Assembly (NCBI RefSeq): GCF_964204645.1
Contig: NC_134033.1
Coordinates: 1,981,631-2,045,630, forward strand
Direction of reading: 5' to 3'
Source of the DNA: Tubulanus polymorphus
Lineage: Eukaryota; Nemertea; Palaeonemertea; Tubulaniformes; Tubulanidae
Length of the DNA: 64,000 nt
The notes below the pieces were generated by a model that did not search any database, had not been told where the DNA came from, and saw only the letters and a program-made list of their open reading frames with translations. Of the stretch, positions 18,726-62,706 are shown piece after piece. The position numbers were made by a program, and so were the translations under genes. Each line of letters begins with the position of its first letter. Position 1 is the first letter of the stretch.

Positions 18726-21700
18726 TCAAGGTTTCTTATTTTTCTGACAGCGTTCGAAGTGTTTGAACAGCGCCTCCTGTTTGTCGCACGTGTAAACGCA
18801 CAAATGACACGAATACTTCGAACGTTTCATGGGAGTTTTCGATTTATTCTTACTGTGACGACTTCGCTTTTTCATCGGCGACAACGTCGACGACAAGTCG
18901 ACAGTTGTCGTCGAAGCAGACGGCTCGGTCGACGAAGAAGTGAACGCAGACGGATTAGGTCGTTGCGTGTCGGCGACCGCGGCGGATCGATTTCGAGCAG
19001 ACGTATTTCGCGCAGACGGATTCGCAGCAGACGGATTCGGTACGTGTGTTCTAACGGGTATATACCTCAACACGTACTCCATACGTTTCTCATCCGCCTC
19101 CGCGGCCGCTTCGATCAACTTCTCTTCCTCCGCATTATGTTTGGCCAGATCGCCTGCAGCAGTCGCCACCGTCGCTGTCGGGATTTTAATCGTAAGCGTA
19201 CGCGGCTTTTTATTCGCCGATATTTTCGCCACTTTTGCCATCGGCTGCGGCGGCGGCGGCGGAGGTGTGGGCGTTTCCGTCATCGATCTAGTCGAATCCG
19301 CGCTTTCGTTCATGTCCTCCTTAACGTACCAAACTCGCTCCGTTCTCGCGCCCGGACCGACGACCACGCCCGGGTGGTCCGACACTTTCCAGTCCGATTC
19401 GGCGTGGTTATTCTTCATATGGCGCACGAGCGCCGACCCGCGCTCGGTCAAATACGGGCAGACGTCGCACTTGAAAATGCCGTGCACTTGCAAGTGCCGC
19501 AGATATGCGGGCTTCTCGTCGAAGTGCAACTTGCACATCTGACAGAAGAGTCGATCTGGTGATTGCGGGTGCTCTTTACGGCGGTGGGTTTTCATGTGGG
19601 CGTCGCGGTTCGTCGCGAACGCGCACTTATCGCACCGGATGACCTCGTCGCCGGTTGGCGTTCGATCGTGGCGTTTGAACCGGTGGAATTCGCGCTCGTA
19701 CGACGTTTCGAACGTTTTCGCGCAAACGTCGCACTCGAATTTCTTACGCGTTTTCGGTTGGCCGTCCGTGAACGTCAACGGCACGCCTCCGAAATCCTCT
19801 CGCTCGCGTCGCTGCGGCGTCAACCCGTCCACGCGCCAGACGGCCATTCCGCATTTGCGCGCGTGTTGCTCGGCCTTGACGACGTCGAACGTGCGGAAAT
19901 CGCCGGCGCATTCGCACGAGTAGTGCGACAAAAACGCAAAGATGCCGCCGGTTTCGAAACGATCGTGAAGCGTCAGCAGATGTTCGGCGTACTCCTCCAG
20001 ACGGATCATACGCACCGCGACCTTCGCGCTGCCGTCGCAAACGTCGCAGACGTACGCCTGCCCGGTCACGTGCAACATTCGCCAGTGGATCAACATCTTC
20101 GCGCGTTCGTCCGTCCGGAAATAACAATCCGGGCATTTGTAATTGAGATCGTCGCCACTAGGCGGCGCGGTTGCTTTCTTGACGCACTCGCTGCGGATCC
20201 CGTGGACGATCAGTTTCTGCTCGGTGGTGAACACCATCAAACAGTGGTTGCACTGTAAGTCCTTACCCTCGTGCGCCGAGCGGTGGTGTGCCCAGAGATC
20301 GGCGCACGACGCGAAGTAACGCCCGCACCAGTAACACGCGTTGATCGAGGCGGCGCCACCGCTGACCCGAGATCGGCTAGCGGCGATGTCCGAGTTCGAT
20401 CGAATGCAGCGATCGTCGTGGTTGACGAATTGTTCGCGGTCGTTTAACGCGAGATCGCACTGGCTGCATTTCAACTCGACGTTTCCGTGTTTCGACTTCA
20501 GGTGGAGCCACAGGTAATTCTTGTCGATGAACCCTTCCGAGCACAAAGCGCACTCGGGTTCAGATTTGGTTTTTGAGGTCGGGCCGGATAACAGACGTTC
20601 GGCCTCTTTAGTAATCCCTTTAGCCATTTCATCATGGATTGTTTCATTATCACCATCATCTTCGACATCCTCTTCTACGCTTGGAAAAGCGTCTACATTC
20701 TCTAGAACTTCTACATCCCTTACACGATCTACATCTTCAACATCTTCTGCATGATTTACATCCTGTGCAAGATCTGCATCTTTTCCAGGATCGACATCCT
20801 CCATCTCCGCACAATCTACATCTACATCGGCTGTTGAACGATCTACATTTTCTACATCGTTTACATCAGTCACGTCAGGAGCTTCTTCAAAAGGAGATTC
20901 TTTATCTACAGTCGACGAACTGTGACCTATTTCGATCCCAGCTTCTACAATTTCGACATCTTTTCCGCCTGATTTAGAATCTGCGCTTTTGAAAGGAACC
21001 AACTTTGTTTGCACTTGCGTTGGACTTCTTATCATAAGTACTCTGCTACTATTAGGAGCCGTACTTTTCGAAGTAAGTTCATCGTACAAGATCGGTGCAG
21101 CGCTTACCTTCTTGTCAGTACCGCCACCTGTAACAGGTGTTTTACGAACCTGCGATGCAATCTGAGTCGACCTACTCTTCTTCAAAACCGACATCAGTTG
21201 TTCGTAGGAAGTTATTCTCACTACGCGACGTGGCGAGACAGAAGTAGGAGCTAGTGAGGAGCCATGTGAGGAGCCATGTGAGGAGCAATGTTGTACTGGA
21301 TCAGTTCGAGATGCAGGAGCTGGTGAGGAACCATGTGAGGAGCCATGTTGTACTGAATCAGTTCGAGATGCAGGAGCTGGTGAGGAGCCATGTGAGGAGC
21401 CATGTTGTACTGAATCAGTTCGAGATGCAGCAGCTGGTGAGGAACCATGTGAGGAGCCATGTTGTACTGAATCAGTTCGAGATGCAGGAACTAGTGAGGA
21501 GCCATGTGAGGAGCCATGTTGTACTGAATCAGTTCGAGATGCAGGAATTAGTGAGGAGCCATGTGAGGAGCCATGTTGTACTGAATCAGTTCGAGATGCA
21601 GCAGCTGGTGAGGAACCATGTGAGGAGCCATGTTGTACTGAATCAGTTCGAGATGCTGAAGCTAGTGCAGAGCCATGTTGTACAAAACTGGTTTGTGGGT

Positions 21701-22289
21701 CAGTTGGAGACATTGCGGAAGGTGAATCACGAGGCACTGAGACAGTTCGAGACACAGGAGCTGATGAAGGAACCGAGTTGGGTTGTGATGCAGGAGTTAG
21801 TGAGCCTTTACGCGGATGCTGTCGGTCAGTTTGTGACACCGAAGCAGACGAGTCATGACACAGCGAGTCGGATTGGGACTCGGCCTCGGGCGAAATGGAT
21901 CGGAACTCGGCCCCGGACGGGACGGCCCGACACGCTCGAGCCAGCGAATCGCTTTCTAGTACGACGGCGAGCCGCGCGAATACTCGACACGTCGACGGAT
22001 CCCAGCCGTCGGTCGAACCGGTGTAGAAAAACTCCAACAACGAATCGAACATAGATTCCGTAATATCCGATTCCTCGTCGTCGATGGCGAATCGCGTCAC
22101 CGATTCGGTGCCAGCTTCGGCGGCCATTTTGTAAAACGCGTTTGAATGAGCGGCGAAGACGGCCGCGTGCACGCGACGACTCGATCCGGGCGTGTAAAGT
22201 TCAAGGTCACAGAACGCGTTCAACGAACGGAACGTGAGCAGACGATGGCATAGATCGACTACGACTCCCTCTTTTGAGTGGTTCGGCAT
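18726..22289 (-). CDS. BTB/POZ and C2H2 zinc-finger protein (1187 aa)
   Basis: One long exon encodes an N-terminal BTB/POZ domain at about residues 15-125 (typical CDLELYTPG, VHAAVFAAHSNAFYKM and FYTGS segments). A Ser-rich region follows, with seven 19-residue repeats (about 203-345), then a very acidic Asp/Glu/Val stretch (about 470-555). About eleven or twelve C2H2-type fingers run from about residue 580 to the C-terminus (for example FECDVCAKTF, IRCDKCAFAT, FKCDVCPYLT, final YSCHLCVYTC). Some fingers are atypical in spacing. Family knowledge: such proteins are nuclear DNA-binding regulators that dimerise through BTB and often recruit co-repressors. A splice acceptor (TCTCATTTCAG) ends 11 bp before the ATG, so the leader is spliced and the whole protein lies in one exon. 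The orthologue cannot be named. Long open frames on the opposite strand are shadows. Confidence 0.9.
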   Translation of the reverse strand: MPNHSKEGVVVDLCHRLLTFRSLNAFCDLELYTPGSSRRVHAAVFAAHSNAFYKMAAEAGTESVTRFAIDDEESDITESMFDSLLEFFYTGSTDGWDPSTCRVFARLAVVLESDSLARACRAVPSGAEFRSISPEAESQSDSLCHDSSASVSQTDRQHPRKGSLTPASQPNSVPSSAPVSRTVSVPRDSPSAMSPTDPQTSFVQHGSALASASRTDSVQHGSSHGSSPAAASRTDSVQHGSSHGSSLIPASRTDSVQHGSSHGSSLVPASRTDSVQHGSSHGSSPAAASRTDSVQHGSSHGSSPAPASRTDSVQHGSSHGSSPAPASRTDPVQHCSSHGSSHGSSLAPTSVSPRRVVRITSYEQLMSVLKKSRSTQIASQVRKTPVTGGGTDKKVSAAPILYDELTSKSTAPNSSRVLMIRSPTQVQTKLVPFKSADSKSGGKDVEIVEAGIEIGHSSSTVDKESPFEEAPDVTDVNDVENVDRSTADVDVDCAEMEDVDPGKDADLAQDVNHAEDVEDVDRVRDVEVLENVDAFPSVEEDVEDDGDNETIHDEMAKGITKEAERLLSGPTSKTKSEPECALCSEGFIDKNYLWLHLKSKHGNVELKCSQCDLALNDREQFVNHDDRCIRSNSDIAASRSRVSGGAASINACYWCGRYFASCADLWAHHRSAHEGKDLQCNHCLMVFTTEQKLIVHGIRSECVKKATAPPSGDDLNYKCPDCYFRTDERAKMLIHWRMLHVTGQAYVCDVCDGSAKVAVRMIRLEEYAEHLLTLHDRFETGGIFAFLSHYSCECAGDFRTFDVVKAEQHARKCGMAVWRVDGLTPQRREREDFGGVPLTFTDGQPKTRKKFECDVCAKTFETSYEREFHRFKRHDRTPTGDEVIRCDKCAFATNRDAHMKTHRRKEHPQSPDRLFCQMCKLHFDEKPAYLRHLQVHGIFKCDVCPYLTERGSALVRHMKNNHAESDWKVSDHPGVVVGPGARTERVWYVKEDMNESADSTRSMTETPTPPPPPPQPMAKVAKISANKKPRTLTIKIPTATVATAAGDLAKHNAEEEKLIEAAAEADEKRMEYVLRYIPVRTHVPNPSAANPSARNTSARNRSAAVADTQRPNPSAFTSSSTEPSASTTTVDLSSTLSPMKKRSRHSKNKSKTPMKRSKYSCHLCVYTCDKQEALFKHFERCQKNKKP
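21254..21680 (-). repeat. In-frame 57-bp coding repeat, seven units
   Basis: Each 57-bp unit encodes 19 residues (ASRTDSVQHGSSHGSSPAP and variants) inside the BTB zinc-finger protein. Units are nearly identical in DNA, which points to recent expansion and probable length polymorphism. Confidence 0.9.
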
Positions 22290-22574
22290 CGTTCTTTACG
22301 CTGAAATGAGAAATACGCGAGAAATAGAAATTTGTAATAAAAAAATTTGGTCAATTTTTTGGTGACCGGGTGGCCACTTTCCGCCTATTACAAATCCCTG
22401 ATTTCCCCATGTTATTACACAAAATTCCATGAGAGTGAATCAGAGAAAGTTGCCAGGTTTGAGGCTGCCGAAATTCCCTTTCCTCAATGATATACCCTTA
22501 AAGTGGTTGGTAAAACCCTGACAGGAGGAACCACCCCTAACGGAGAGGTGAAACATTTTTTGAACATTTTTTAG

Positions 22575-26379: not shown

Positions 26380-26735
26380 AAATCCACCTACGACATCATC
26401 AAATTGTTGAATGATATTAACTAGGTATTTCTAGAAAAGAAGGCTGCTCGCACATGACATCATCATAGAGACGTTCGTGCATTGATGACAAGATGTCTGT
26501 CTCAACGAATCCCCCTATGACATCATTGTTGACATCATACTCCGGGGACTTTTACACAGGGGACAAAAACGTCCGCATGGAAAATTTCGATCTTTAGACT
26601 CTTCTAGAAAAATGGCAGCCTTTATAAATCCCCCTATGACATCACAAAAGTTTAATCTACAGTCCCTTTCGGATAAAATGGCTGCATTTTCATATGTCCC
26701 CCTATGACATCACTCGATTTGATGAATCATAAAAC
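26380..26735. repeat. Family F array in the 5' intron of the tetraspan repeat gene
   Basis: Five units with CCCCCTATGACATCA, interleaved with GAAAAATGGCAGCCTTTATA-like halves. See 8375-8720. Confidence 0.7.
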
Positions 26736-26762
26736 TGTTCTTATTTTCAGACATCAATCGAA

Positions 26763-29700
26763 ATGGTGGTGAAGAAGCCAGCGCCCCCTGTGATGAAAAA
26801 ACCATCATCGGGAACGAATCTCGAAGAGCTCGATACGATCTCGGCTACGATTCCCGGGCAGACGGACCACTGCACGCCGCCGGGATCAGTCCGCCGCGGT
26901 AAGACTAGTCCGTTGCTCGCGAAATGGACCGAGGCGACGGAAACGAAAGAGCGACCGACACCGGATAAACCGACACCGGGTAAACTAGCGATCAGTCCGC
27001 AGCTGGCCGGATTACTCGGGCAGGTCGGTAAACAACAGGAATCGACGGTGATTCATAACAAAAAGGAATCGACGCCGAAAAGGAATCCGAGTTTTACGGG
27101 AGCCGTCGACAAACTGCGACAAAACTCGAAAGACGAATCGACGCCGCATCTGGCGAAGATGGTCGCTGAATTACGAGAAAAATCCATCGACGAAAATGCA
27201 AATGATAATGATAAGGAGGAGGGGAAGGAGGAGCAGGAGGAAGAGAGGAAAGAGGAGCAGACGATAAAGAAGGAGGAGCAGACGGCTACGAATACCGGTC
27301 TAGCCGGAATGCTCGCTAAGATTCGACCGCCGAACGAGAACGCGTCGCAAAAACGAGGAGCCTTCGCGCGGATGGTCGAATCGGTGGAAACTATGACCGT
27401 CGATCGGGACGACGGGGACGTGGATAACGTCGGTGGAAGCGTTGATTCCACGCAGCAGACGGCGAAACCGAAAATGGCAGGAATGGCATCGAAAGTGATC
27501 GCCGGTTCACCGGCGGCGGCGGCGCCACGTCTCGCCGAGATGGTCGATAAGGCGCGTGCGTCGATCGACGCAGACGATGGCGAACAGCGGCAGACGGACG
27601 ATAAAAATATGACCGCCGACGCAGACGTGAAAAGTAAGCCACCCGCCCCGGAGAGGAAAAAGACGCTACAAGATATGATGACTAAAATGCGGTCGATGAC
27701 CTCGCAAGACGAGTCGCCTATAGAGGGAGCCACCGTTTCGGCGGGCGGAGGATTCGGGATGATGATAGAGAAGGTGCGATCGATTTCGGAGGATCGCGAG
27801 GAAGACGACGAACCGGCGAGCACGAACATCACGACCGAGGCGGAAATCGCCATTAACCGCGACGATGCGGACGAGTCGAAGAAGTCGACGGTCGGATTCG
27901 CCGGGATGGTCGCCAAAGTCCAAACGCCCGCGGCTGACGCCAAGGCTAAACCGCCGCGACTAGCCGAAATGGTCGATGAAGTGCGCACTTCGTTAGACGC
28001 CGGGAATAATAATCGCGGCGGCGATCCCGTCGACGCCATCGAAGAAATCGAAGACACGAAAAAAAAGTCGAAAAAGAAGTCGGCGCTGCCGGGTCTGTTC
28101 GCGAAAATACACCGACGAAAGTCTATCGACGAAGTCGAATCGAAGTCGCCGAAATTGGCGGATATGGTCGACGTAGTCAGGACATCGATGGACCAGAGCG
28201 ATGGGGATGTTCCGCCGAAGACCGACGATGCAGCGACGGATGATGCGAATGATGATGTAGATGAGGAGAGTAAGGAGGAAGTGAAGAAAAAGGAGGCGAA
28301 AGGAGGCGGTAAATTCGCGGGAATGTTCTCGAAAATTCGGAAAAAGTCGATCGACGAATTGGACGACAAAAAAGCGACGAAACCGAAATTAGCCGAGATG
28401 GTCGACGAGGTTCGTCTGTCGATGGAGCAAGAGAAGGAACCCTCCGGCGAACCGGAGCAGGAAGAATCGAGCCAGGAGTCGGAGACGAAAGAATCGTCGA
28501 AATCGTCGAAACTTTCGGGAATGCTGGCGAAAATTCGACGCAAATCGATCGACGAGTTGGAGAAGAAAGCGAAACCGAAATTAGCCGAGATGGTCGACGA
28601 GGTGAGGTTATCGATGGAGCAAGAAAAAGTGGAAGGTGGTGAGAGTAAAGAAGAAAAAGAAGACGGAACCAAAGAGTCGGAACCGAAAGAGTCAAAGTCG
28701 AAACTTTCGGGAATGCTCGCGAAAATTCGTGGAAAGTCGACCGACGAATTGGACAAGAAAGTGAAACCGAAATTAGCCGAGATGGTTGACGAGGTGAGGT
28801 TATCGATGGAGCAAGAGAACCCGCCGCCTCCACTTGCTGCTGCTGCTGCTGCTGCTGTTGCTGGTGCTGCTGTCGCTGCTGCCACGGATGAGCAACCACC
28901 GAAAGACGAAGAAGGAGAAAAGGATGATGAAACGAAGGAGAAAGAACCGTCGAAGTCTAAACTATCAGGGATGCTGGCGAAAATCCGACGCAAGTCGACG
29001 GACGGTTTGGACGACGACAAGAAAAAGACGTCGAAACCGAAGTTGGCCGAAATGGTCGACGAAGTTCGTATGTCCGCAGAAAAAGATGGCGGACAGGACG
29101 GCGGCGGACAAAATGGCGGACAAGACGGCGGCGGACAAGATGCCGGACAAGGCGCGGCAGACGGAAAAGACGAATCGGGTAAAACTATGCTGAAACGTTC
29201 GACGCTACCGCTCGGAGTGAGCGTGATGAAGAAAGACGAAATCGACGTCGGGGACGGGTTGAAAGAAAAGAGTCGGACGTCGCAGCCGAATCTGCTGGGC
29301 GGTCTCGTCGGCGAGGACGACACCGCCGCGAAACGCTCGAGCACGCTACCGCGCGTACTCGACGCCGAGAAAAAGAAAGCGCCACCCGCCACGCATCACA
29401 CGTTACCGCGCGCGAAAACGGTCAAGGACATGCCGCCGCTGGTTAAACCACCCGCGAACGTCGACGAACTTCTCGAGACTCTGCGCCAAGACGACGACCT
29501 ACGCACGCCGGCCCCGAACGCCTGCTGCCCCGGCCGTATACCCGGCTGCTCCGAGGAACTGCTGTTCGGCTCCGTGCAAATCGTCGTCGCCGTAATCATC
29601 GTCCTACTGGGAATCTCGGCGATCATCACCGAATCGACGTACGGACTGGTCGCGTATCGAATCTGGGGCGGAGTCGCGTTCGTCGTCGCCGGAGGCTTCA

Positions 29701-30179
29701 TTATCGGTATGCGCATACACTATCGATCGACCAATTACGCGTCGGCGTGTCTAGCGTTGGCCATGTTGTCGCTCGTGTTGGCCGGCGTCGGAATTACCGT
29801 CGATTATTTCGCGTATAAAATCGACGACCAGCGACCGGACAACCCGACGAAATGCGAAGGTTTCCGAATCGTCGACGGCGTCCGCGAGCCAAAGTGTTTT
29901 TCGGCGCCGCTCTGGGACAAGCGTATCTGGCACGTTGTCTGTCACGTTACGAGTATGGTGCTGTTCGCGTTGGAAGCGTTCGTCAGTTTCGTCACTACGG
30001 TGTTCAGTAGTCGACGCGTCTGCTGCGTCGAGCAGACGAACCCGACAGACGGCGACGACGAAGAGAAACTCGATTATTGCATGGACGTTACGCCGGATGA
30101 CAAACCGATAGACGCGACAAAACCGCCGACCGAGACTATACTCGAAGAGAAGGACGAACTTACGAAAAACGAAAACTGA
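26763..30179 (+). CDS. Long repeat protein with C-terminal four-helix membrane domain (1138 aa)
   Basis: A single coding exon begins at the first ATG after a splice acceptor. Residues from about 75 to 800 hold about ten copies of a two-part repeat. One part is KLSGMLAKIRRKSIDEL-like and the other KPKLAEMVDEVRLSMEQ-like, joined by Lys/Glu/Asp-rich linkers; later copies are the most alike. The C-terminus has four hydrophobic segments at about 935-957, 965-987, 992-1018 and 1053-1081. The long loop between the third and fourth has two Cys, and a short acidic tail follows. The four-helix layout with a long second loop resembles MS4A/CD20-like proteins, but this is topology, not a proven family match. 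The RRKS and RKKS motifs could be basophilic kinase sites (inference). Both the repeats and the tail would face the cytosol. A 779-codon open frame on the other strand is a shadow. Confidence 0.8.
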   Translation: MVVKKPAPPVMKKPSSGTNLEELDTISATIPGQTDHCTPPGSVRRGKTSPLLAKWTEATETKERPTPDKPTPGKLAISPQLAGLLGQVGKQQESTVIHNKKESTPKRNPSFTGAVDKLRQNSKDESTPHLAKMVAELREKSIDENANDNDKEEGKEEQEEERKEEQTIKKEEQTATNTGLAGMLAKIRPPNENASQKRGAFARMVESVETMTVDRDDGDVDNVGGSVDSTQQTAKPKMAGMASKVIAGSPAAAAPRLAEMVDKARASIDADDGEQRQTDDKNMTADADVKSKPPAPERKKTLQDMMTKMRSMTSQDESPIEGATVSAGGGFGMMIEKVRSISEDREEDDEPASTNITTEAEIAINRDDADESKKSTVGFAGMVAKVQTPAADAKAKPPRLAEMVDEVRTSLDAGNNNRGGDPVDAIEEIEDTKKKSKKKSALPGLFAKIHRRKSIDEVESKSPKLADMVDVVRTSMDQSDGDVPPKTDDAATDDANDDVDEESKEEVKKKEAKGGGKFAGMFSKIRKKSIDELDDKKATKPKLAEMVDEVRLSMEQEKEPSGEPEQEESSQESETKESSKSSKLSGMLAKIRRKSIDELEKKAKPKLAEMVDEVRLSMEQEKVEGGESKEEKEDGTKESEPKESKSKLSGMLAKIRGKSTDELDKKVKPKLAEMVDEVRLSMEQENPPPPLAAAAAAAVAGAAVAAATDEQPPKDEEGEKDDETKEKEPSKSKLSGMLAKIRRKSTDGLDDDKKKTSKPKLAEMVDEVRMSAEKDGGQDGGGQNGGQDGGGQDAGQGAADGKDESGKTMLKRSTLPLGVSVMKKDEIDVGDGLKEKSRTSQPNLLGGLVGEDDTAAKRSSTLPRVLDAEKKKAPPATHHTLPRAKTVKDMPPLVKPPANVDELLETLRQDDDLRTPAPNACCPGRIPGCSEELLFGSVQIVVAVIIVLLGISAIITESTYGLVAYRIWGGVAFVVAGGFIIGMRIHYRSTNYASACLALAMLSLVLAGVGITVDYFAYKIDDQRPDNPTKCEGFRIVDGVREPKCFSAPLWDKRIWHVVCHVTSMVLFALEAFVSFVTTVFSSRRVCCVEQTNPTDGDDEEKLDYCMDVTPDDKPIDATKPPTETILEEKDELTKNEN

Positions 30180-41872: not shown

Positions 41873-44800
41873 ATGATGTCTAAACTAGAATCCATTGTAG
41901 TTAGCGGCGTATTCATGATTTCGATGATCTGGTATTTGACGGCAGAATCAAAGGTAAATCAACGTGTAACTTCTTAAACACTACTTTGGCCCGGATCTCG
42001 GAATATCTTCACTTCTCTACGTCCTGCGTGGATATTGTGAAACTAAAGCGCAGTCCGATTTCTTATTTAGAGATTTAAGCAGTTCAATGATTTTCTAACA
42101 AGTCTAACTGGGTCAAGGAATAAATCCGCAAAACAGGCCCCGAAGACATCATAGATTTTAAAATGTAATTTCTTTCGCAGCAAACTGGATTTTTCGGTTT
42201 CGTTTATTCGTTGTTGTTGTTGCCGTCTGTATTGTTGTTGGTTGCCGCGGTTATCGTCTGCTGCCCGCGCGATTTACCGGCAGACGGACTGAAAGATCGG
42301 TGGAAAATACGAATAATACTGACGATTCGTAACATCATCAATCTTGTGGTAAGAATTGATCGAACAAAATTATGAATTCCCTTCCCTTTTAAGGGCACAT
42401 AGATTTAGGGGCTTCATTGATGGGGGGACAAAATAATCACTGGAAATATTTTGAAATTTGTCGGTTGTTACCACGGTTTCCATGCAGGGAAAAATAAATC
42501 CCGAATACCCAGATTACCTGATCTTTCCAATTTCAGTGCATCTACACCAAAGTGCAGTGTATAAATCGGTGATGCACTTTGCAAGTACACGGCACTGCCG
42601 TATACTGGTTTTATTCGCGATTAGTTATTCTCTCCATTGAAAGATGGCAGCACTTGTCAAACATAATACGTGCGAAATGTGAGTAACCTACAATACACTG
42701 CACCACGGCGTAGACACACTATAGTGAATAAATGATATAAAGATTCCAAGTCCAAACTCTAAAAATTTCAAATTATCTCCAGCACTTTCGGGTACAAATG
42801 AGGCAGCACTGTAAGGATTAACCCCTTTCCATCGATAACCTATTATAAACGGACGATTAGGTAGTTTTATATCTATAACAACAGGGCGGTGTTGTATGTT
42901 ATTTCGGATTTGCATGTTACACGACGTCTACGGCGCGTATGTACAACTATCTGCTGTCGATCGGCCAGTCGTACCTGGGAGTAATAGTGAGTACATGTAT
43001 CTTAAGTCCTTAAGATGTTAAAGTTAAGACTCACTGGTCTACGTTAAATCACAAGCCATATTCGAATTCGTTAATTTTTTCAGGAGTTCGACGACGCAAT
43101 CGAAGGTGTCAAAGTGAAGATTTTTAAGCCGACAGAAGTTGAAGATAGCGATGAGTTGATACCAGGAGTTGTGTACATTCACGGCGGAGGTTGGACTAGC
43201 ATGAGTACAGGTCAGTCATTTCAAAATCATGTCAGACATGACATTGAAATATTTCAACTTGGTTTTTAATTGAAAGGACATCCGATGGCCTAGCTCGGAC
43301 AGTTTTAGTAATGTCTATATTAACATTGCCTTAGAAGACGTCAGGTGGCATAGCTCGATCTGTTTTGGCAATGTCTATTTTAGTTCAATAGTAGTGACTA
43401 ATGATACACCGCGCTGTGGTTTAGATGCAATAAAGCGGTATGCCTGTAATACACCGCACTACGGTGGAATTGTCTAAATTTTCAAATTAGAACTTTCTGC
43501 ACTGAAACCCCTAGGTTTACGTCAAACCCAGTCGCGTTGTACCTTGCTAGTGTATTAATAATACGCCGCGCTGTGGTTTAGATGCAATAAAGCGGTATGC
43601 CCGTAATACACCGCACTGCGGTGGTCATCAAATGTAAATCATTTTCTGAAAACAGAAACGCACAGACGATTGACGAGTTTGTTGTGCAAACATCTGAACA
43701 AAATAGTCATCTCAATCAGGTAGGTGACATCGAGCAACTACGAGCAACTATTTCAGCACGGACGTTTTAAAGAAACGCTTGATGATGGATGAATCAGTTT
43801 TCATCGTTGTGTATTTCAGTTACAGCGTCGTACCCGAGGTACATTTTCCGCAACCGGTCGACGAATGTTTGAAAGTGACGAAATATCTACTGAATCACGG
43901 TGACCATAAATATCGGATCAAACGAGATGATATCATCATAGCCGGTGAGATATCTCAATAAATCCCCCCTATGACATCATAGTTATCTATTATTCAATCC
44001 TTCTGGAAAAGATCAGATTGCCTAATGGATCGACTATACCCTTCGAGAATAAATGACTGCCTTCCCCCTATGACATATCACTATGTTTATCAAAGAGATC
44101 CTCTCCTCGAATAGATGGCTGCTTCCATGAACTCCCCCTATGACATCATCAAATTGATCTAACAAATTGATCTAACACCCGATCCAGAATTATGGCTGCC
44201 ACCATCTAACCCCCTATGACATCATCAAATTGATCTAATGCCCCATCCACAATGGATTACTGCCTCCATCAATCCCCCTATGACATCATCAAAAGATTTT
44301 GAAACAAATATTGTCTGATAAGGAAATCTTGAATTGTGTATTTGATGTAGGAGATGACGTTGGAGCCAATATGGCCGCCGTGATTGCGCAAGAGTTACGA
44401 AACGTCGACGATGACACGCCGAGATTAACGAAACAGATTCTCATCGACCCTGTTCTGCAATTCTTCGATTTCGAACTGGCGTCGCACGTCGAGAACGATC
44501 GTTACGATTTGTTGGCGTCGTCGCGGTCGCTCGCGCACCGGTTCCTGTTCTACGTCGATCGCTCGCCGTTTTACGCCACTGAAATATTGCGCAATCGCCA
44601 CGTCGACGCGGCGGATCGCGAAAAATATGGATACCTCGTCGATCGCGGATTATCGACGACCACGCCCGAACCGCGAATTCACGAATATACCCCGCATTCT
44701 TATCAGGATTTAGTGTATTATTACCATGGCGATGCGACGCCGGGTCAGATCCGTCCGCCCGTTACGCGACGATTAACCGACCCGGTCGAAAACGATGCGA

Positions 44801-45075
44801 TCGTCGCCGCCGATTTACGCGCGGCGGTACTTGACCCGCGAGTCGCTCCGCTCATGCGCGACGACCTCGACGGCTTACCGCCGGCCGTTATCGTGACATC
44901 GCGGTACAGCATCACCCGCGACGACGGTTCGATCTACGGCAGACGGTTAGAATCGGCCGGTGTCAAGGTCGTTTCGACGGAATTCGAGCAGACGTTTCAC
45001 GGACACCTCGTTTACGCCCACGTTCTGGAAAGCGCTCGCGACAACGCGATGAAACTCATCGAATTAATTCGTTAA
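41873..45075 (+). CDS. Arylacetamide deacetylase-like alpha/beta hydrolase, catalytic residues replaced
   Basis: Exons 41873-41953, 42181-42348, 42885-42986, 43084-43210, 43656-43719, 43820-43944 and 44351-45075 join in phase to 463 codons plus stop. The N-terminus has two hydrophobic segments (exons 1 and 2), so a membrane anchor in the ER is expected. The oxyanion-hole motif YIHGGGW is intact and SYSVVPEVHFPQPVDE matches AADAC/NCEH1. The nucleophile elbow, normally GDSAGGN, is GDDVGAN, so Ser is Asp. The EHD/QYD of the acid motif before RDDG is RYS, so Asp is Ser. The His of FHG remains. With splice sites and frame intact, a pseudoenzyme is more likely than a dead gene. AADAC relatives hydrolyse neutral lipid and drug esters; this copy probably cannot. 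AATAAA near 45403. Confidence 0.9.
42535..42822. repeat. Family C element in the AADAC-like gene, intron 2
   Basis: TTTCAGTGCATCTACACCAA at the left and GGCAGCACTGTAAGGATT at the right, with the ATGGCAGCAC block inside. Confidence 0.65.
43385..43630. repeat. Family C fragments in the AADAC-like gene, intron 4
   Basis: Two tandem partial copies. The block TGTGGTTTAGATGCAATAAA is repeated at about 43410 and 43570 and is followed by CACCGCACTACGGTGG or CACCGCACTGCGGTGG. Confidence 0.65.
43955..44300. repeat. Family F array in the AADAC-like gene, intron 6
   Basis: Five units with CCCCCTATGACATCATCAAA, ending about 50 bp before the acceptor of exon 7. Confidence 0.75.
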
Positions 45076-54300: not shown

Positions 54301-57300
54301 CGAAAATATCATAGCGGGTAAATTATATTTAAGTCATGTATCGTATTCTGAAGCTGGATGGTGGCCACACTGACCTGGAAAACCTGGATGGAATCATCTA
54401 AACAAGAAAAAAATCGGGGAAAGTTTGTTTAAAAAAAAACCCTCAAAAACTCCCTAGGGGTAAATCGTCAATCTGTGTAACAACCACCGTAGTAACAATG
54501 AGAAACCATGGTTACAACTGACGAATTTCAAAATATTCCCAGGGACTATTTTTCTTCCACATCTATGAAATCGAGCCCAGGAATTTGGATAATGCGATTG
54601 ACCATACATGATTCATTGAAAAATGAACGAATTGAAACATTTTAAACGACAAAATTTCTCTGATTTACTCTGCGGGAAATTTTTGTAATCACATGAAAAA
54701 AATCAGGGAAAAACTCTGGGAATTGTTGAATGGGCAGAAAGTGGCAGCACCTTGTCTGAACGGTTCGTCAATCAGGACCTAGAACTCTGGGACGGAGTCC
54801 TATATTAGCGTGACGCGGCCCCGGGTTCTGTTACATGCCGAGTTTCAATTGTGTTTTTTATGTTGTATCCTAGGTGAAGGTAATGGTTTTAAAGTAGCGA
54901 TGAATATTCTGAATAACGGAAGGTTTGGAATGGCCGGCGCTCTTTCCGGTACGATGAGAACTTGTATTAAAACAGCGGTAAGCTACGATATTCTAAAATC
55001 TCACGAATCCCCCTATGACATCATTAAGGCTGCCATCTTTTCTAGATGATCTTTTCTAGGTGTTTAGTTTAAATTACTAATTGGTAAATAATGATGTCAT
55101 AGGGAGATTTAAAAGGGCAGCCATATTTTCAAGAAATATCCATAGTTTAAAATCGTGTATTGGTTATTTGATGATGTCATAGGGGGAAAAACAAGTTGAA
55201 ATCGCTAGGCAGAATTTGGTGATGTCATAGAAGGATTAAACAGTGGTGATGTCATAGGGGGATATCTTTTCTGGAATTGTCCAGTTTAAATCACGAGGCA
55301 ATATATGATGATGTCATAGGGGGATTAAACAGTGGTGATGTCATAGGGGGATATCTTTTCTGGAAGTGTCCAGTTAAAATCACGAGGCAATGTGATGATG
55401 TCATAGGGGGATTAAACAGCGGTGATGTCATAGGGGGATATCATTTCTGGAAGTGTCTTTAGTTTGAAATCACTAGTAGGCAATTCGATGATGTCATAGG
55501 GGGATTAAACGGCGGTTTATTGTTATATATATACAGGTTGACCACGCCAGTCAGCGAGTTCAATTCGGACAGAAGATCGATTCCTTCGGCACGATTCAGG
55601 AAAAAATCTCGCGCATGGTTCTCAAACACTACGTTACAGAGGTACGTAATGATACACTAGGTGGCGCTACCGATCACCTATTACACCTATTATACACACC
55701 TATTATAAAAAAATTTTTTTTAAACCAAAAACCTGAAAATTCATATGTGTTATCTCTATTATTATTCTATTCTATGTGTATCTCTGTTTTCTTGTTTTTA
55801 AGTTTTGTAAATTATAAATTTTATTGTACAAATTCTTGTAACCTCTATGTACCAATGTTTGGTTAGAGCGAAATAAATAAACCTAAAACCTAAAACCTAC
55901 AATAGTAAATAGTATATTATGTACATAAGTGTGAGACTAGTTAATTAAGTTTTGTAGCTTTTATTACTGTTTATGTAATTATTGTAAACGCTGTTTTTCC
56001 TCCATATACCATGGAAATGGTTATGGGGTGTAATAAATATTCGTATTCGTACCTGTGCATAGATTTTCTAACCTTGATTCTAACCCGATTCACTTAAACT
56101 TCGCCGAAACATTCCCAATTTGAACACATTCGAAACTTTGACATGGTATTAAAAACTCCAAATTTCCATCGCAATTTTTTTATCAGAAACGGTTTGGATA
56201 TATGCGTAGATCCCTCATTCAGCATAGTACATGTATTTGTACGTATTCTAAATAAGTTTGTTAATGTTTTTGAAATGTTTTCTCTTGATTTGCAAATATT
56301 CGAAAAACAAAAAGATTTTTCCTCTGCGTAAATGCAGGAGAGTAATGAAATAATCTCGTCTATGTCGTTATATTCGGTGAAAAAAAAATTTGATATAATT
56401 TTTTTTTTCTAGTCAATGGCGTACATGTTGTCGGGTAACATGGATCTGGGCGCGACCGATTTCCAAATCGAAGCCGCCATTAGTAAAATCTACGCTTCGG
56501 TGAGTAAGAATTTTTAAAGAATTTCGGAAATCTTTGACGAAATTAGTGATTAGGCTATAATACCTGTGGTCGTCTGCTGTTTGGTTTTCTAGGAAGCCGC
56601 TTGGTTCTGCGCCGACGAAGCTATTCAAGTACTCGGTGGAATGGGTTACATGAAGGTAAAAATTGTCGGGTGTTTAAGCGTTAGGTCAGTGCCACCATTG
56701 ACCTAGAAAACCTGGAAATCGCAGGGAATCAGAAAAGCCAAGAATAAATCACAGAATTTGACTGGAAAAATTTTTTTTAAACCAAAAACCTGAAATTTCA
56801 AGTGTTTCTTTATCAATAAGTGATTCGATGAAAAATGCATGAATTGTAAACATTTTAAGCTTAGAAATTTCTCTGATTCACTCAGGGGGAATTGTATAAT
56901 CACATGGAAAAATCAAGGAAAACTCAGCGGATTTGTGAATTGCCAGAAGGTGGCGCCACCCTGTTGATGTTCTTCCAGTCCCTTAAATCTGGTCTTGAAT
57001 TGCATGTATTTCTTTTTTTCTATTTTCAAGGATTGCAGTTTGGAGCGAGTTATGAGGGATTTGAGAATCTTCCGTATTTTCGAGGGAACCAACGACATTT
57101 TACGTCTGTTCACGGCTCTCACCGGGATACAAGTAAGTTTTCCTACATTAACAGAATCATCGATCGTTTGATTAAAAAACCAGTCAGAAGTAAAACTGCT
57201 TGATAGAAACCAGTCACAAATAAAACTGTTTGATAGAAACCAGTCAGAAGTAAAACTGTTTGATAGAAACCAGTCACAAGTAAAACTGCTTGATAAAAAC

Positions 57301-60300
57301 CAGTCACAAGTAAAACTGTTTGATAGAAACCAGTCAGAAGTAAAACTGTTTGATAGAAACCAGTCACAAGTAAAACTGCTTGATAGAAACCAGTCAGAAG
57401 TAAAACTGTTTGATAGAAACCAGTCAGAAGTAAAACTGTTTGATAGAAACCAGTCGCAAGTAAAACTGCTTGATAGAAACCAGTCAGAAGTAAAACTGAT
57501 TGATAGAAACCAGTCAGAAGTAAAACTGATTGATAGAAACCAGTCACAAGTAAAACTGTTTGATAGAAACCAGTCAGAAGTAAAACTGCTTGATAAAAAC
57601 CAGTCAGAAGTAAAACTGCTTGATAAAAACCAGTCACAAGTAAAACTGCTTGATAGAAACCAGTCAGAAGTAAAACTGTTTGATAGAAACCAGTCAGAAG
57701 TAAAACTGCTTGATAGAAACCAGTCAGAAGTAAAACTGCTTGATAGAAACCAGTCAGAAGTAAAACTGTTTGATAGAAACCAGTCGCAAGTAAAACTGCT
57801 TGATAGAAACCAGTCAGAAGTAAAACTGTTTGATAGAAACCAGTCAGAAGTAAAACTGTTTGATAGAAACCAGTCGCAAGTAAAACTGCTTGATAGAAAC
57901 CAGTCAGAAGTAAAACTGATTGATAGAAACCAGTCAGAAGTAAAACTGATTGATAGAAACCAGTCACAAGTAAAACTGTTTGATAGAAACCAGTCAGAAG
58001 TAAAACTGCTTGATAAAAACCAGTCAGAAGTAAAACTGCTTGATAAAAACCAGTCAGAAGTAAAAACTGTTTGATAGAAACCAGTCAGAAGTAAAACTGC
58101 TTGATAGAAACCAGTCAGAAGTAAAACTGCTTGATAGAAACCAGTCAGAAGTAAAACTGCTTGATAGAAACCAGTCAGAAGTAAAACTGTTTGATAGAAA
58201 CCAGTCAGAAGTAAAACTGTTTGATAGAAACCAGTCAGAAGTAAAACTGATTGATTAAAACCAGTCACAAGTAAAACTGCTTGATAGAATCCAGTCAGAA
58301 GTAAAACTGTTTGATAGAAACCAGTCACAAGTAAAACTGCTTGATAGAAACCAGTTACAAGTAAAACTGTTTGATAGAAACCAGTCACAAGTAGTGATTG
58401 ATAGAAACCAGTCAGAAGTAAAACTGCTTGATAGAAACCAGTCAGAAGTAAAACTACATGATAGAAACCAGTCAGATGTAAACCAGATTAAGCATGTGGC
58501 TAATTTGCATACCAGGTGACCAGCTCTGACCAATCATAACCCAGGATAAGAATTATAGCCGTGTGACCTGTTTGTTTACATTAGGGAACCACTTTTGTAT
58601 ATATTAGTGAGGATGAGAATATGGGGATCTTTTCTGTTTCTGTTTTCCTGCATAAACAGAATCTTCTTTGATAAACCATATTTATAACTGATTTATATCG
58701 TGAGCCACAGTTAGAGTCGGGTTTCAATCACCTTCAGAAATTATCTCAATAACTGAGATCCCAATTAAGGGATCGCTATCATGCATAGATCAAATACCAC
58801 TCAATATCTATACAATTTGAAATGTTCTTACTACTATAAATGCAAGGGCGATGGAATCGAAAAGTTTGCAGTTCTAGGCTAATAGCACCCGTAGTTTACA
58901 CGGGATAGTAATTTTGTCCAAAAAAAGCTACAAATCGACAAACACTATAGCGGTGTTGACGCGCTCTAGTGGTATTCCTGTTATTCAACACACTAGGGTG
59001 GAATTTTTCAAAATTTTCAAATTATCTCCAGCACTATAGGCTATTGATCAGTCAGCGCTGAAAGGGTTAAAATGGATACATTGAATTTTTTATGGACTGT
59101 TCATAAAGTCTAGGTTAACCCAGGAGTTTGTCGGTTTTTCCAACTGAAGTGTTGTGGATTTCATGAAAAAAAGCCGCTTAATTTCTGGATCGATGATACA
59201 CAATGAACTGAATGAGACTGTATTGTCTTGTAGAAAGTCGTCTGCTAACAGTCCTGAATGTGTCTGGTCGTAGAGCTCGGTTGACTTAGTATACGACATA
59301 CAGAGATTCATCTTCGTCAAATCTGAATTTTCCAATGCTAGATGTATATAAGTATATAGTTTATATCCATCCGGTGAAAATAGTAAAAATTTCGCGTGGA
59401 GTAGTTTTTGATGAGAGGGTGAGACAAGGGAGTCAGAGACAGAGAGAGAGAGAGGTGTGTGTGTTACTGCATAGAGTCACTGATGAGTCTATGCGCTTCA
59501 ACATGAATTCTACCACAATCACTACGACTATACTTAATGCCTGTCCGGACGTGTATCCACCCGCTAGATGGGATTACGTTTTCAGCTATAGTATTTACTT
59601 GTACGGATATTTTCCGGCTTCAGTTTTCGGAATGATTCTCAACTCCGTTTCTATTGTAGTATTCAGAAAGATCGGTCGCGACATTTATCGAACTATAATC
59701 ATTCTCGCCTGGTTTGATTTACTGTTCGTATTTTCAGTGTTCCTACTTTATCCATTTCGAATACTCATTATCTTATATTTTCAATCCACCGAATTTCTCG
59801 GCAGTTACGACGACTGGTATTTTGGACACGAAATCATTATTTGGGTTCTACCGCTGTTTCATACGTTTCAAATGGCAAAAAATTGGGCCGTAGTCACAAT
59901 AAATTTTGAAAGACTTCTGGTCGTCGCGAGTCCGCTGTATTTCAGACGATTCTGGAACAAAAAACAAATCATTTTTCTATCGGTTTTAAATGCATTTTCT
60001 TCTGCCCTTTGTTTCTGGCCATATTATTTTCCACTGACGTTACCAGGAAGGACCACGCAACGCTGTTTTGAACATTTATTCACTATGGGAGCTTTTGGAG
60101 CGAAAACAATTCGAACACCTTTCACTTATGGCTTTGATTATGGAAACGACTATGTTAACAATATCTATATGACCATGACTGTTCTTGCGCCTTTTATTGT
60201 TCTAACCATGATTAATCTAACTTTGTTCGGAATTATGATATTTCGAAAACTAAATCGAAAGAAACAATTTCACGCGGACGCGGCGGCGCCCGTTGAAAAA

Positions 60301-62706
60301 TCTACCGAACTCAAAATATTAAAAGTGGTTCTTATAATTGTTCTTTTGTTCTTTATCTGTGAAATTCCCGCATCCATGGACCGTATGGTACATTACTTCT
60401 CATCGAAGTTCGGATTACATCACGGTCTATCGGGGGATGAAATGATGGTCATGCGTAAAGTCGGAATTCTGCTCAGTATTTTTGATTCAACCGCGAATTT
60501 CTTCGTTTACTGCGCGACAAACAGCTCCTTTAGAAAAAAAGCTAAACAGATTTTACTGATAAATTATCTTTGTGACTCGAAATAGAATCGAAAAACAATT
60601 TCTTGCAAGAATTCTTATGAATTGACGATATAAGAATAATGAAAATCAGTAAAAGTGGGAGTTTTGTAAGACTGAAGGAGTAAAACAATGTTTTTTTTTT
60701 CTTTTTTAATTAAATTTTCCAGTATGCTGGTGGGCATTTGAAGGAACTGCAGAAAGCGTTCAATAATCCAGCAGCGAATCTCGGTCTGATCATTTCTGAA
60801 GGGGCCACTCGCACTAAAAGGTACTTATGGATAGAGATAGGTCTACAGAGCCCCCGTAAATCCCCCTACGACACCATCCTATCAGTGGAGTCATCCGTAG
60901 ACTACTTCCAGAGAAGATGGCCGACTGCATAAATCCCTCAATGACATCATCGATGAATGAATAGATGGCAAACACCATAAATCCCCCTATGACATCATAA
61001 TTGTCATCATGCTTGTGATTCTAAATTTGCGCAGGGACAAAAAATGTCCCTGTAGAAAACTTTCATGTATGGGCCCTTCAAGAGACGATGGCTGCCTCTA
61101 TAAATCACCCTATGACATCATCAAATTGACCAAGACCCTATAGACTCTTTTTGGAAAGATGGCAGCCTTCGTAAATCCCCCTATGACATAACCGAAGTTT
61201 GATCTACAGTCCCCTCCAGATAAGATGGCTGCCTTGCTCAGACATCATCAAGAATTGATTCAAATTTATCGAAATTGCTCAAATATTGAAGATTATTCGG
61301 AATGAAGGAATGGAACCTGTATATGTAATTGTAGAATGTTGGGAATGGGAAGTGGACCGTCGTTACGAGAATTCGTACATCCCACTCTCTACACGTCTGC
61401 CGACCAATGCACGAAATGCGTCGAAGACTTCGGATCTTCCGTGGAGAATCTGCTCATCAAATACAACAAGAAAATCGTCGGTAAGTTTGCCGTAAGAGTC
61501 GGAGGAGTGACAAACTCACAATGAACAAGCAGCATTGAGAGATTTTCAGAAAGCTTCGAAATTGATGGATTGATAGGAAATTTCTTTGATCCAGGCGCCA
61601 GTTCTACAATTCACGGCTGAAATACGACTCAATGTTTTTAGCATCGGATTCTAATTTTTACTTAACTGCTCTTAACACAAAAAAGTCAAAATTATCCAAC
61701 AGTAACTAACTGATCTTAACACAAAAAAGTCAAGTTTTTTACGTTACTGTGGAATTTTGACCTGATTTACAGTCAATGGTCGGAATAATGTTTTACATAA
61801 GTAACCAATTGAAAATCTTTGAAGTTCCTCCGACCTGATTTTGTATATTTGCAATGTTTGACTTTCCGCGCTTGCCACACAGCAATTGTAGACAAAATAA
61901 TTAATATTTTATTATTCTTATATGTCGTTTACAGAACAACAGTTCCTGTTAAATCGTCTAGCCGACGCTGCTATTGATATTTACGCGATGGTCGCCGTGA
62001 TCTCGCGTTCGTCTCGATCTCTGACGCAGAATCAAACGACCGCTCAACACGAGGCGAATATCGCTAACGTTTTCTGCGACGAGGTACGTAGCACGTGAAG
62101 ACAGTTTCCTCGGGTTTTGAGTTGATTCATGTGAATATGGTTCAAATAATTCAACCTGACCCTGTTCCACAGTTCTGAACCCAGTTCCACAGTTCCTGAA
62201 CCCAGTTCCGCAGTTACTGGATCCACTTCCACAGTTACTGGACTCTGTTCCACTGTTACTGAATACAGTTCCACCACAGTTACTGGACTCAGGTCCACAG
62301 TTACTGGACTCGGTTCCACAGTGCTGAATCCAGTTCTCCATTTGCTGAACCCAGATCCACAGTAACTTGGCTTAGTTCCACAATTACTGGACTCAGTTCC
62401 ACACTTCTGAATCCAGCTTTACAGTAACTGAACACATTTCCACAGTTACTGAATACAGTTACTGGACTCAGTTCCACAGTTCTGAATCCAGTTCCAACTG
62501 TGAAACTGTTTTCGTGTTCCACCCATAAAGCTCTGATTCTATTGCGATATTTTCTCTCTAAATTGCAGGCGAGAATTCGAGTGAAGTCGAATCTGGGAAT
62601 TCTCACGAGCGGCATGTACAAACGCAACTTCGAGAAACTGGCGCTGATTTCCAAGGACGTTGTGGAGAACGGCGGCGTCGTGCAGCAACACCCGCTCGGA
62701 TTTTAA
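48362..62706 (+). CDS. ACADVL: Very-long-chain acyl-CoA dehydrogenase, mitochondrial
   Basis: Nineteen exons join in phase to 633 codons plus stop: 48362-48426, 48750-48825, 48937-49009, 50103-50167, 50644-50752, 51170-51264, 51379-51510, 53434-53547, 53930-54015, 54223-54317, 54874-54977, 55537-55641, 56413-56499, 56593-56655, 57031-57132, 60723-60820, 61335-61480, 61935-62083 and 62569-62706. The first 30 residues are basic and Ser/Ala-rich, a mitochondrial presequence. Dehydrogenase signatures are present: [29 protein letters not shown] and [20 protein letters not shown]. The catalytic Glu is in [19 protein letters not shown]. The C-terminal VLCAD-specific domain, which binds the inner membrane, runs to VVQQHPLGF. 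The enzyme is an FAD homodimer for the first step of long-chain beta-oxidation. Intron 15 (3.6 kb) contains a GPCR gene and a 30-bp array. Confidence 0.96.
49681..49863. repeat. Family I element in ACADVL intron 3
   Basis: GATACCTTGTTTCTC and GAGAAACAAGGTATC are exact inverted ends. The interior has GGCCGCCTATCTACCCTATA. This copy is intact and shows the family without the nested insert seen at 30.3 kb. Confidence 0.85.
52615..52840. repeat. Family C element in ACADVL intron 7
   Basis: Contains ACACCACAGCGCAGTGTATC, GCGCTGCCATCTTTCA and GTACTGCGGTGTAGACGC. The right end is diverged. Confidence 0.6.
53081..53355. mobile_element. Non-autonomous DNA transposon, family H, copy 2
   Basis: A 275-bp reverse copy of the element at 12215, with ends CAGGGTCCGATCTAAG and CTTAGATTGGACCCTG. 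It is flanked by CTTTG on both sides (53076-53080 and 53356-53360). A G-run of about 19 bases is an internal expansion. It lies in ACADVL intron 7, ending about 80 bp before exon 8. Confidence 0.88.
54345..54765. repeat. Family E element with family B inserted
   Basis: The outer parts (CTGACCTGGAAAACCTGGAT, then ATCAGGGAAAAACTCTGG and AGTGGCAGCACC) align with the element at 56690-56965. A reversed family B copy (about 54450-54581) interrupts this one only. ACADVL intron 10. Confidence 0.6.
54990..55515. repeat. Family F array, reverse orientation, in ACADVL intron 11
   Basis: About nine occurrences of GATGATGTCATAGGGGGA or close variants. A 110-bp block (AAACAGTGGTGATGTCATAG...) is tandemly repeated three times. 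Confidence 0.85.
55735..55905 (+). mobile_element. Possible retroposon 3' tail 1
   Basis: A T-rich block ends in AATAAATAAACC and then a short repeat, (TAAAACC)3. This resembles the 3' end of a truncated non-LTR element. No reverse transcriptase is present. Confidence 0.4.
55925..56062 (+). mobile_element. Possible retroposon 3' tail 2
   Basis: The segment ends in GTAATAAATATTCGTATTCG. An AATAAA followed by a short 3' repeat (ATTCGT) is typical of CR1/Jockey-like LINE tails. No coding part remains. Confidence 0.4.
56690..56965. repeat. Family E element in ACADVL intron 14
   Basis: Bounded by GTGCCACCATTGACC and GTGGCGCCACC, and colinear with 54345-54765 apart from the insertion there. Confidence 0.6.
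57169..58484. repeat. 30-bp tandem array, about 44 copies, in ACADVL intron 15
   Basis: The unit is TTTGATAGAAACCAGTCAGA plus AGTAAAACTG. Variable sites (TT/CT/AT before GAT; AGAAG/ACAAG/GCAAG) occur in blocks: a series near 57330-57560 repeats near 57750-57960, so a higher-order duplication of about 420 bp is present. The 30-bp length keeps minus-strand frames open for 491 and 274 codons; these are not genes. Confidence 0.97.
58930..59070. repeat. Family C fragment
   Basis: Only the right part remains (ACACTAGGGTGGAATTTTTC, then GTCAGCGCTGAAAGGGTT). It lies upstream of the GPCR coding region. Confidence 0.6.
59491..60585 (+). CDS. Rhodopsin-like (class A) GPCR, intronless, inside ACADVL intron 15
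   Basis: One exon encodes 364 residues from the chosen ATG ([13 protein letters not shown]), which puts potential N-glycosylation sites in a short extracellular N-terminus. The frame is open back to 59335, but that part contains a GA repeat and looks like leader. Seven hydrophobic helices are clear. Class A landmarks: N in ILNSVSIVV (helix 1), LAWFD (2), NFER in place of DRY (3), W in ALCFWPYYF (4), P in LAPFIVL (5), CEIP in place of CWxP (6), and DSTANFFVY in place of NPxxY (7). The usual Cys at the top of helix 3 was not found, though a Cys (QRCFEH) lies in loop 2. Overall style recalls invertebrate peptide receptors, but the ligand is unknown. The stop is 137 bp before ACADVL exon 16, with no AATAAA between. 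Confidence 0.88.
   Translation: MRFNMNSTTITTTILNACPDVYPPARWDYVFSYSIYLYGYFPASVFGMILNSVSIVVFRKIGRDIYRTIIILAWFDLLFVFSVFLLYPFRILIILYFQSTEFLGSYDDWYFGHEIIIWVLPLFHTFQMAKNWAVVTINFERLLVVASPLYFRRFWNKKQIIFLSVLNAFSSALCFWPYYFPLTLPGRTTQRCFEHLFTMGAFGAKTIRTPFTYGFDYGNDYVNNIYMTMTVLAPFIVLTMINLTLFGIMIFRKLNRKKQFHADAAAPVEKSTELKILKVVLIIVLLFFICEIPASMDRMVHYFSSKFGLHHGLSGDEMMVMRKVGILLSIFDSTANFFVYCATNSSFRKKAKQILLINYLCDSK
60840..61255. repeat. Family F array in ACADVL intron 16
   Basis: Five to six units with CCCCCTATGACATCATAA or variants, alternating with GATGGCTGCCT-like halves. Confidence 0.75.
62150..62500. repeat. Minisatellite in ACADVL intron 18 (GTTCCACAGTTACTGGACTC)
   Basis: About 16 imperfect copies of a 20-22 bp unit, the reverse complement of the family at 2130-2450. 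Open frames across it on the minus strand are artefacts. Confidence 0.85.

Follow-up and report, generated by a model that had tools for sequence, protein, structure and literature searches.

A single gene of the nemertean Tubulanus polymorphus encodes 20 copies of one short motif, strung along a tail of ∼930 residues that precedes a four-helix membrane domain of CD20-like ancestry. It lies in a 64-kb stretch of genomic DNA, referred to here as the window, and was analyzed from its sequence. The reading that we favor, tentatively and at somewhat less than even confidence, is that of a multivalent, phospho-regulated docking tail on a CD20-like membrane protein, in essence an enlarged version of the tails of CD20 itself.

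The forward strand carries a stop-to-stop frame of 1148 codons (26733-30179) with no internal break. Its first ATG, at 26763, has a favorable context (GAAATGG) and is located 12 bases past the acceptor-like sequence TTATTTTCAG. In several CD20-like relatives from the same genome, too, an acceptor-like site precedes the ATG by no more than some tens of bases, and the ATG opens an uninterrupted single coding exon. This shared layout points to 26763 as the coding start and to repeats and membrane domain as parts of one protein. Thus, the proposal of the original prediction that everything is contained in one exon of one gene is supported, as is its picture of a long repeat tail on a tetraspan anchor, with the tail presumably on the cytosolic side. 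The protein begins with a non-repeat stretch, continues with the repeat array (aa 111-774) and a non-repeat linker of more than 150 residues, and ends with the membrane domain and an acidic tail. The features are collected in Table 1.

Table 1. Features of the repeat-bearing CD20-like gene; positions are those of the window
Feature	Position	Strand	Basis or remark
Acceptor-like site TTATTTTCAG just 5' of ATG; presumed end of 5'-UTR intron	26741..26750	+	Sequence; similar site near ATG in several CD20-like relatives
Whole coding sequence, one open frame	26763..30179	+	1138 aa plus stop
N-terminal non-repeat stretch, aa 1-110	26763..27092	+	Motif scoring; no Pfam match
Repeat pair 1 (A aa 111, weak; B aa 130)	27093..27191	+	Motif scoring
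Repeat pair 2 (A aa 180; B aa 201, weak)	27300..27404	+	Motif scoring
Repeat pair 3 (A aa 238, weak; B aa 257)	27474..27572	+	Motif scoring
Repeat pair 4 (A aa 302, B aa 331, both weak)	27666..27794	+	Motif scoring
Repeat pair 5 (aa 379/400)	27897..28001	+	Motif scoring
Repeat pair 6 (aa 442/465), RRKSID site	28086..28196	+	Motif scoring
Repeat pair 7 (aa 518/543), RKKSID site	28314..28430	+	Motif scoring
Repeat pair 8 (aa 584/607), RRKSID site; closest copy of pair 9	28512..28622	+	Motif scoring, codon comparison
Repeat pair 9 (aa 648/671), RGKSTD site	28704..28814	+	Motif scoring, codon comparison
Repeat pair 10 (aa 734/761), RRKSTD site	28962..29084	+	Motif scoring, codon comparison
RSSTLP (aa 858-863), array-TM1 linker, fits R-S-x-S/T-x-P 14-3-3 form	29334..29351	+	One match vs 0.04 expected, P 0.04
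CD20-like four-helix membrane domain, aa 931-1088	29553..30026	+	Pfam, profile scores, alignment to relatives
TM1 (aa 938-956)	29574..29630	+	Hydropathy
TM2 (aa 963-985), contains IWGG, most conserved stretch in family	29649..29717	+	Hydropathy, alignment
TM3 (aa 995-1013)	29745..29801	+	Hydropathy
Cys1031 to Cys1045, TM3-TM4 loop; presumed extracellular, presumed disulfide	29853..29897	+	Sequence
TM4 (aa 1058-1080)	29934..30002	+	Hydropathy
Juxtamembrane Cys1087-Cys1088 (RRVCC); relatives CRAICC, CRAVCC	30021..30026	+	Alignment
Acidic C-terminal tail, aa 1089-1138, without RxxS/T site	30027..30176	+	Sequence

Position-specific scoring of the protein resolved ten alternating pairs of units, A and B, with matrices built from the clear copies and 500 shuffles of the same protein as the null. 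With the combined matrix, 15 of the 20 units exceed all 500 shuffles, the strongest scores being partly so by construction, as the matrix seeds were taken from the protein itself. The five weakest units (aa 111, 201, 238, 302, and 331) score at or within the range of the shuffles and were accepted mainly because their positions fit the alternating array. The 14-residue motif can be written as LxxM-hyd-xK-hyd-RxxS-hyd-D/E. When A and B are aligned in register, their BLOSUM62 score is +12.5, a value that none of 2000 column permutations reached (permuted columns score −9.3); at every other offset tested, from −4 to +4, the score is below zero. It follows that the unit of the array is one motif in two types. 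The original prediction of about ten two-part repeats is correct, with the refinement that both halves are versions of the same motif. The two types differ in net charge: B units lie at −1 to −3 and A units, apart from those of pairs 1 and 4, mostly at +1 to +3. They alternate strictly at a spacing of 19-29 residues. The linkers between them are low-complexity, acidic, and variable in length, and contain short tandem repeats.

The history of the array can be followed in part from its codons. Pairs 7-10 are the most alike, with 19-26 of 28 positions identical, compared with 5-15 of 28 among pairs 1-6. At the DNA level the closest are pairs 8 and 9 (pS 0.26, pN 0.03), whereas pair 10, the nearest to the membrane, is synonymously distant from both (pS 0.73 and 0.92, respectively) though close to them in protein sequence (pN 0.10), placing the youngest duplication inside the array. 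That the later copies are the most similar had been anticipated; the expansion from the membrane-proximal side that had been read into this holds only approximately. The late copies differ mainly at synonymous sites, with pN/pS of 0.11-0.30 among pairs 7-10, a rough measure given samples of 30 codons and synonymous sites near saturation. On this evidence, the motif looks to be conserved by selection.

The motif array appears to be new with respect to the libraries searched, namely Pfam, the PDB, and the worm's own genome. As the original prediction had it, the repeat corresponds to no catalogued domain: no Pfam model reached its cut-off. The sub-threshold Pfam matches were to unrelated bacterial models, of which the best, BPA (21.7 bits against a cut-off of 29.5), was rejected together with the others. 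A profile search of the PDB gave nothing below E 0.24, and a single-sequence search gave only matches of low-complexity character. A search of the T. polymorphus genome with the consensus repeat found this gene only.

The membrane domain, by comparison, has identifiable kin. Hydropathy and the positions of Cys1031 and Cys1045 bear out the four transmembrane helices and two-cysteine loop of the original prediction; its implication that this part belongs to no named family finds no support, as profile searches lead to the CD20-like family (PF04103). The Pfam model itself, the one relevant match in that library, narrowly misses its curated cut-off of 27.9 bits on the protein (25.1 bits, E 2.1e-5). 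A profile of 22 CD20-like relatives from the same genome, built without the window sequence, gives it 71.9 bits, compared with maxima of 9.4 bits for 1000 shuffles and 10.4 bits for the tetraspanin and MARVEL loci of the genome. When the window sequence and ten relatives were combined in one profile and run against the PDB (177,635 sequences), human CD20 came first (E 5.8e-10) and FcεRI-β next (4.5e-9), with sarcospan, a distant four-helix relative, a much weaker match far behind (E 0.036). Used alone, the window sequence found CD20 weakly (E 0.31), and Tetraspanin (PF00335) did not match at E values up to 5. The loop cysteines and the CC pair that follows TM4 are common to most of the CD20-like relatives examined. 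In a single-sequence AlphaFold2 model of the domain, itself of low confidence (mean pLDDT 56.6), four long helices can be seen; Foldseek and VIA-align searches with the low-confidence models returned nothing significant, human CD20 being absent from the results, and carry no weight. In a tree the domain sits on a long branch whose position is not firm, and it is at most 23% identical to its relatives. CD20-like ancestry is thus well supported by the profile evidence; orthology to any particular MS4A gene is not implied.

At a limit of E 0.01, no fewer than 34 CD20-like matches are present in the genome, and 27 of these exceed the cut-off. Many members of this large family are clustered at C11:2299632-2333892, mostly as single coding exons. 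Among the matches listed, no CD20-like frame other than that of the window gene exceeds 385 codons, and the N-tails of the relatives examined, counted from the first Met, are 9-161 residues long as against ∼930 here. The window protein would have grown from a tail of that modest length mainly by serial duplication of the 14-residue motif. In a 2010 study, invertebrates were reported to be without MS4A genes, such similarities as were seen being judged short and unspecific, and MS4A was considered restricted to jawed vertebrates (PMC2826416). The match found here extends over the full domain and is absent from the other four-helix families of the genome, so for T. polymorphus that conclusion looks too strict. 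A search of the literature on molluscan or oyster MS4A found nothing relevant. Contrary to the 2010 view, the present data add evidence that CD20-like genes occur widely in one invertebrate at least. The Pfam family name, CD20-like, already leaves room for such relatives.

With CD20 (MS4A1) and FcεRI-β (MS4A2), the window protein shares the four helices, the WGG of TM2, the two-cysteine loop between TM3 and TM4, and the juxtamembrane cysteines. It differs from MS4A proteins, most of which have a total length of only 200-300 aa (PMC2826416), in its long N-tail, its 20 motif copies, and its single coding exon. Exceptional length is not without parallel, as vertebrate MS4A14 combines a CD20-like membrane domain with a long C-terminal extension (PMC2826416). 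The likeness lies in the layout; in the worm protein the extension is N-terminal and bears the motif. The long tail may thus be regarded as a variant rather than a new kind of structure.

CD20 also provides the model for what such a tail might do. RxxS serines in both of its cytosolic tails are PKC-δ sites that bind 14-3-3, and this binding links CD20 to GEF-H1 and microtubules (PMC13226681). Sites of the same RxxS form occur in the presumably cytosolic tail of the window protein: RxxS/T is found 15 times, compared with 6.0 expected from shuffles, an excess in a short motif that largely follows from the duplication of the repeat. Three of the A motifs have RRKS and one has RKKS; RxxS is absent from five of the A or B units. 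The stricter 14-3-3 form is represented solely by RSSTLP, with two further TLP sites nearby. We propose that the protein would be inserted with both N- and C-tails in the cytosol and that the N-tail would be largely disordered and present short docking helices in series, of two alternating types, basic A motifs ending in RxxS and acidic B motifs. Basic-type kinases would phosphorylate the RxxS of the A motifs. The phosphorylated sites may then recruit multiple copies of 14-3-3 or of similar adaptors, and these would tie the membrane patch to the cytoskeleton or to signaling proteins. The arrangement would be the published CD20 scheme with more sites. The original prediction, too, envisaged a membrane-tethered scaffold with RRKS sites that may be phosphorylated. 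The better conserved half, B, has RxS rather than RxxS, so its conservation is not accounted for by phosphorylation, and the docking proposal accounts less well for B than for A.

Two other readings, each of which we regard as unlikely, address the motifs as amphipathic helices. The basic A and acidic B helices might pair, within a repeat or between molecules, such that the tail polymerizes into a submembrane lattice, with phosphorylation secondary. The opposite net charges and strict alternation at the spacing given above would suit pairing, as would the short separate helices that AlphaFold2 placed on the motifs in a model of three repeats, which also lends a little weight to the original description of the repeats as helical. 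That model, of low confidence (mean pLDDT 53.9, pTM 0.16), contains no packed hairpin; this, and the varying length of the linkers, speaks against pairing, although an alignment of six sequences, all from the window, is a poor basis for such a model. Equally, the motifs might act like other short amphipathic helices and make direct contact with actin, calmodulin, or the membrane surface. Both types have an amphipathic pattern, with hydrophobic moments of 0.37-0.63, and there is a loose resemblance between the first part of A (MLxKIR) and the actin-binding WH2 motif. Against actin, the Pfam search returned no WH2 match at any E value up to 10, and the A motif is missing the LKK-type tail of the WH2 consensus.

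More doubtful still is the view of the tail as a disordered expansion that arose by replication slippage under no constraint and serves as bulk or spacer with no specific partner. The nature of the linkers, with their low complexity and internal tandem repeats, is what such an origin would lead one to expect; the mostly synonymous differences among pairs 7-10 (as between 9 and 10, above) are unlike free drift and disfavor it for the late pairs. It is scarcely credible that two genes were joined here by chance or artefact, or that coding lies on the reverse strand, where a frame of 780 codons inside the gene (27053-29395) is free of stops, probably as a by-product of codon usage and the repeats. 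Against this stand the CD20-like homology and synonymous bias of the sense strand, the single-coding-exon layout of the family, and a frame without internal break.

To return to the docking tail, a bolder version of it, which we consider less likely than not, is that of a giant multivalent scaffold in which twenty undescribed, charge-alternating, phospho-regulated motifs would organize membrane patches in an invertebrate with a large CD20-like family. Little is understood of how MS4A proteins signal, owing to the shortness and weak conservation of their tails. A tail motif multiplied twenty-fold and apparently held by selection points to a part that matters and offers a peptide for binding tests.

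The window contains several further features. A dispersed element, CCCCTATGACATCA, is present in 22 exact copies between 6209 and 60984, on both strands and in clusters, with three copies just upstream of the gene (26512, 26631, and 26699). The core, TGACATCA, is similar to a CREB/ATF site, but the element seems just as likely to be of mobile or satellite origin. A frame of 1189 codons on the reverse strand (18726-22295) carries BTB and C2H2 zinc-finger domains and contains a 57-bp tandem repeat (21266-21678). On the forward strand are an α/β hydrolase exon (44284-45075; Abhydrolase_3, 66.7 bits) and a frame of 431 codons resembling a rhodopsin-type GPCR (59290-60585; 29.5 bits, cut-off 30.5). 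A 30-bp minisatellite of around 43 copies (57177-58482) is open in several frames and is easily mistaken for a repeat protein.
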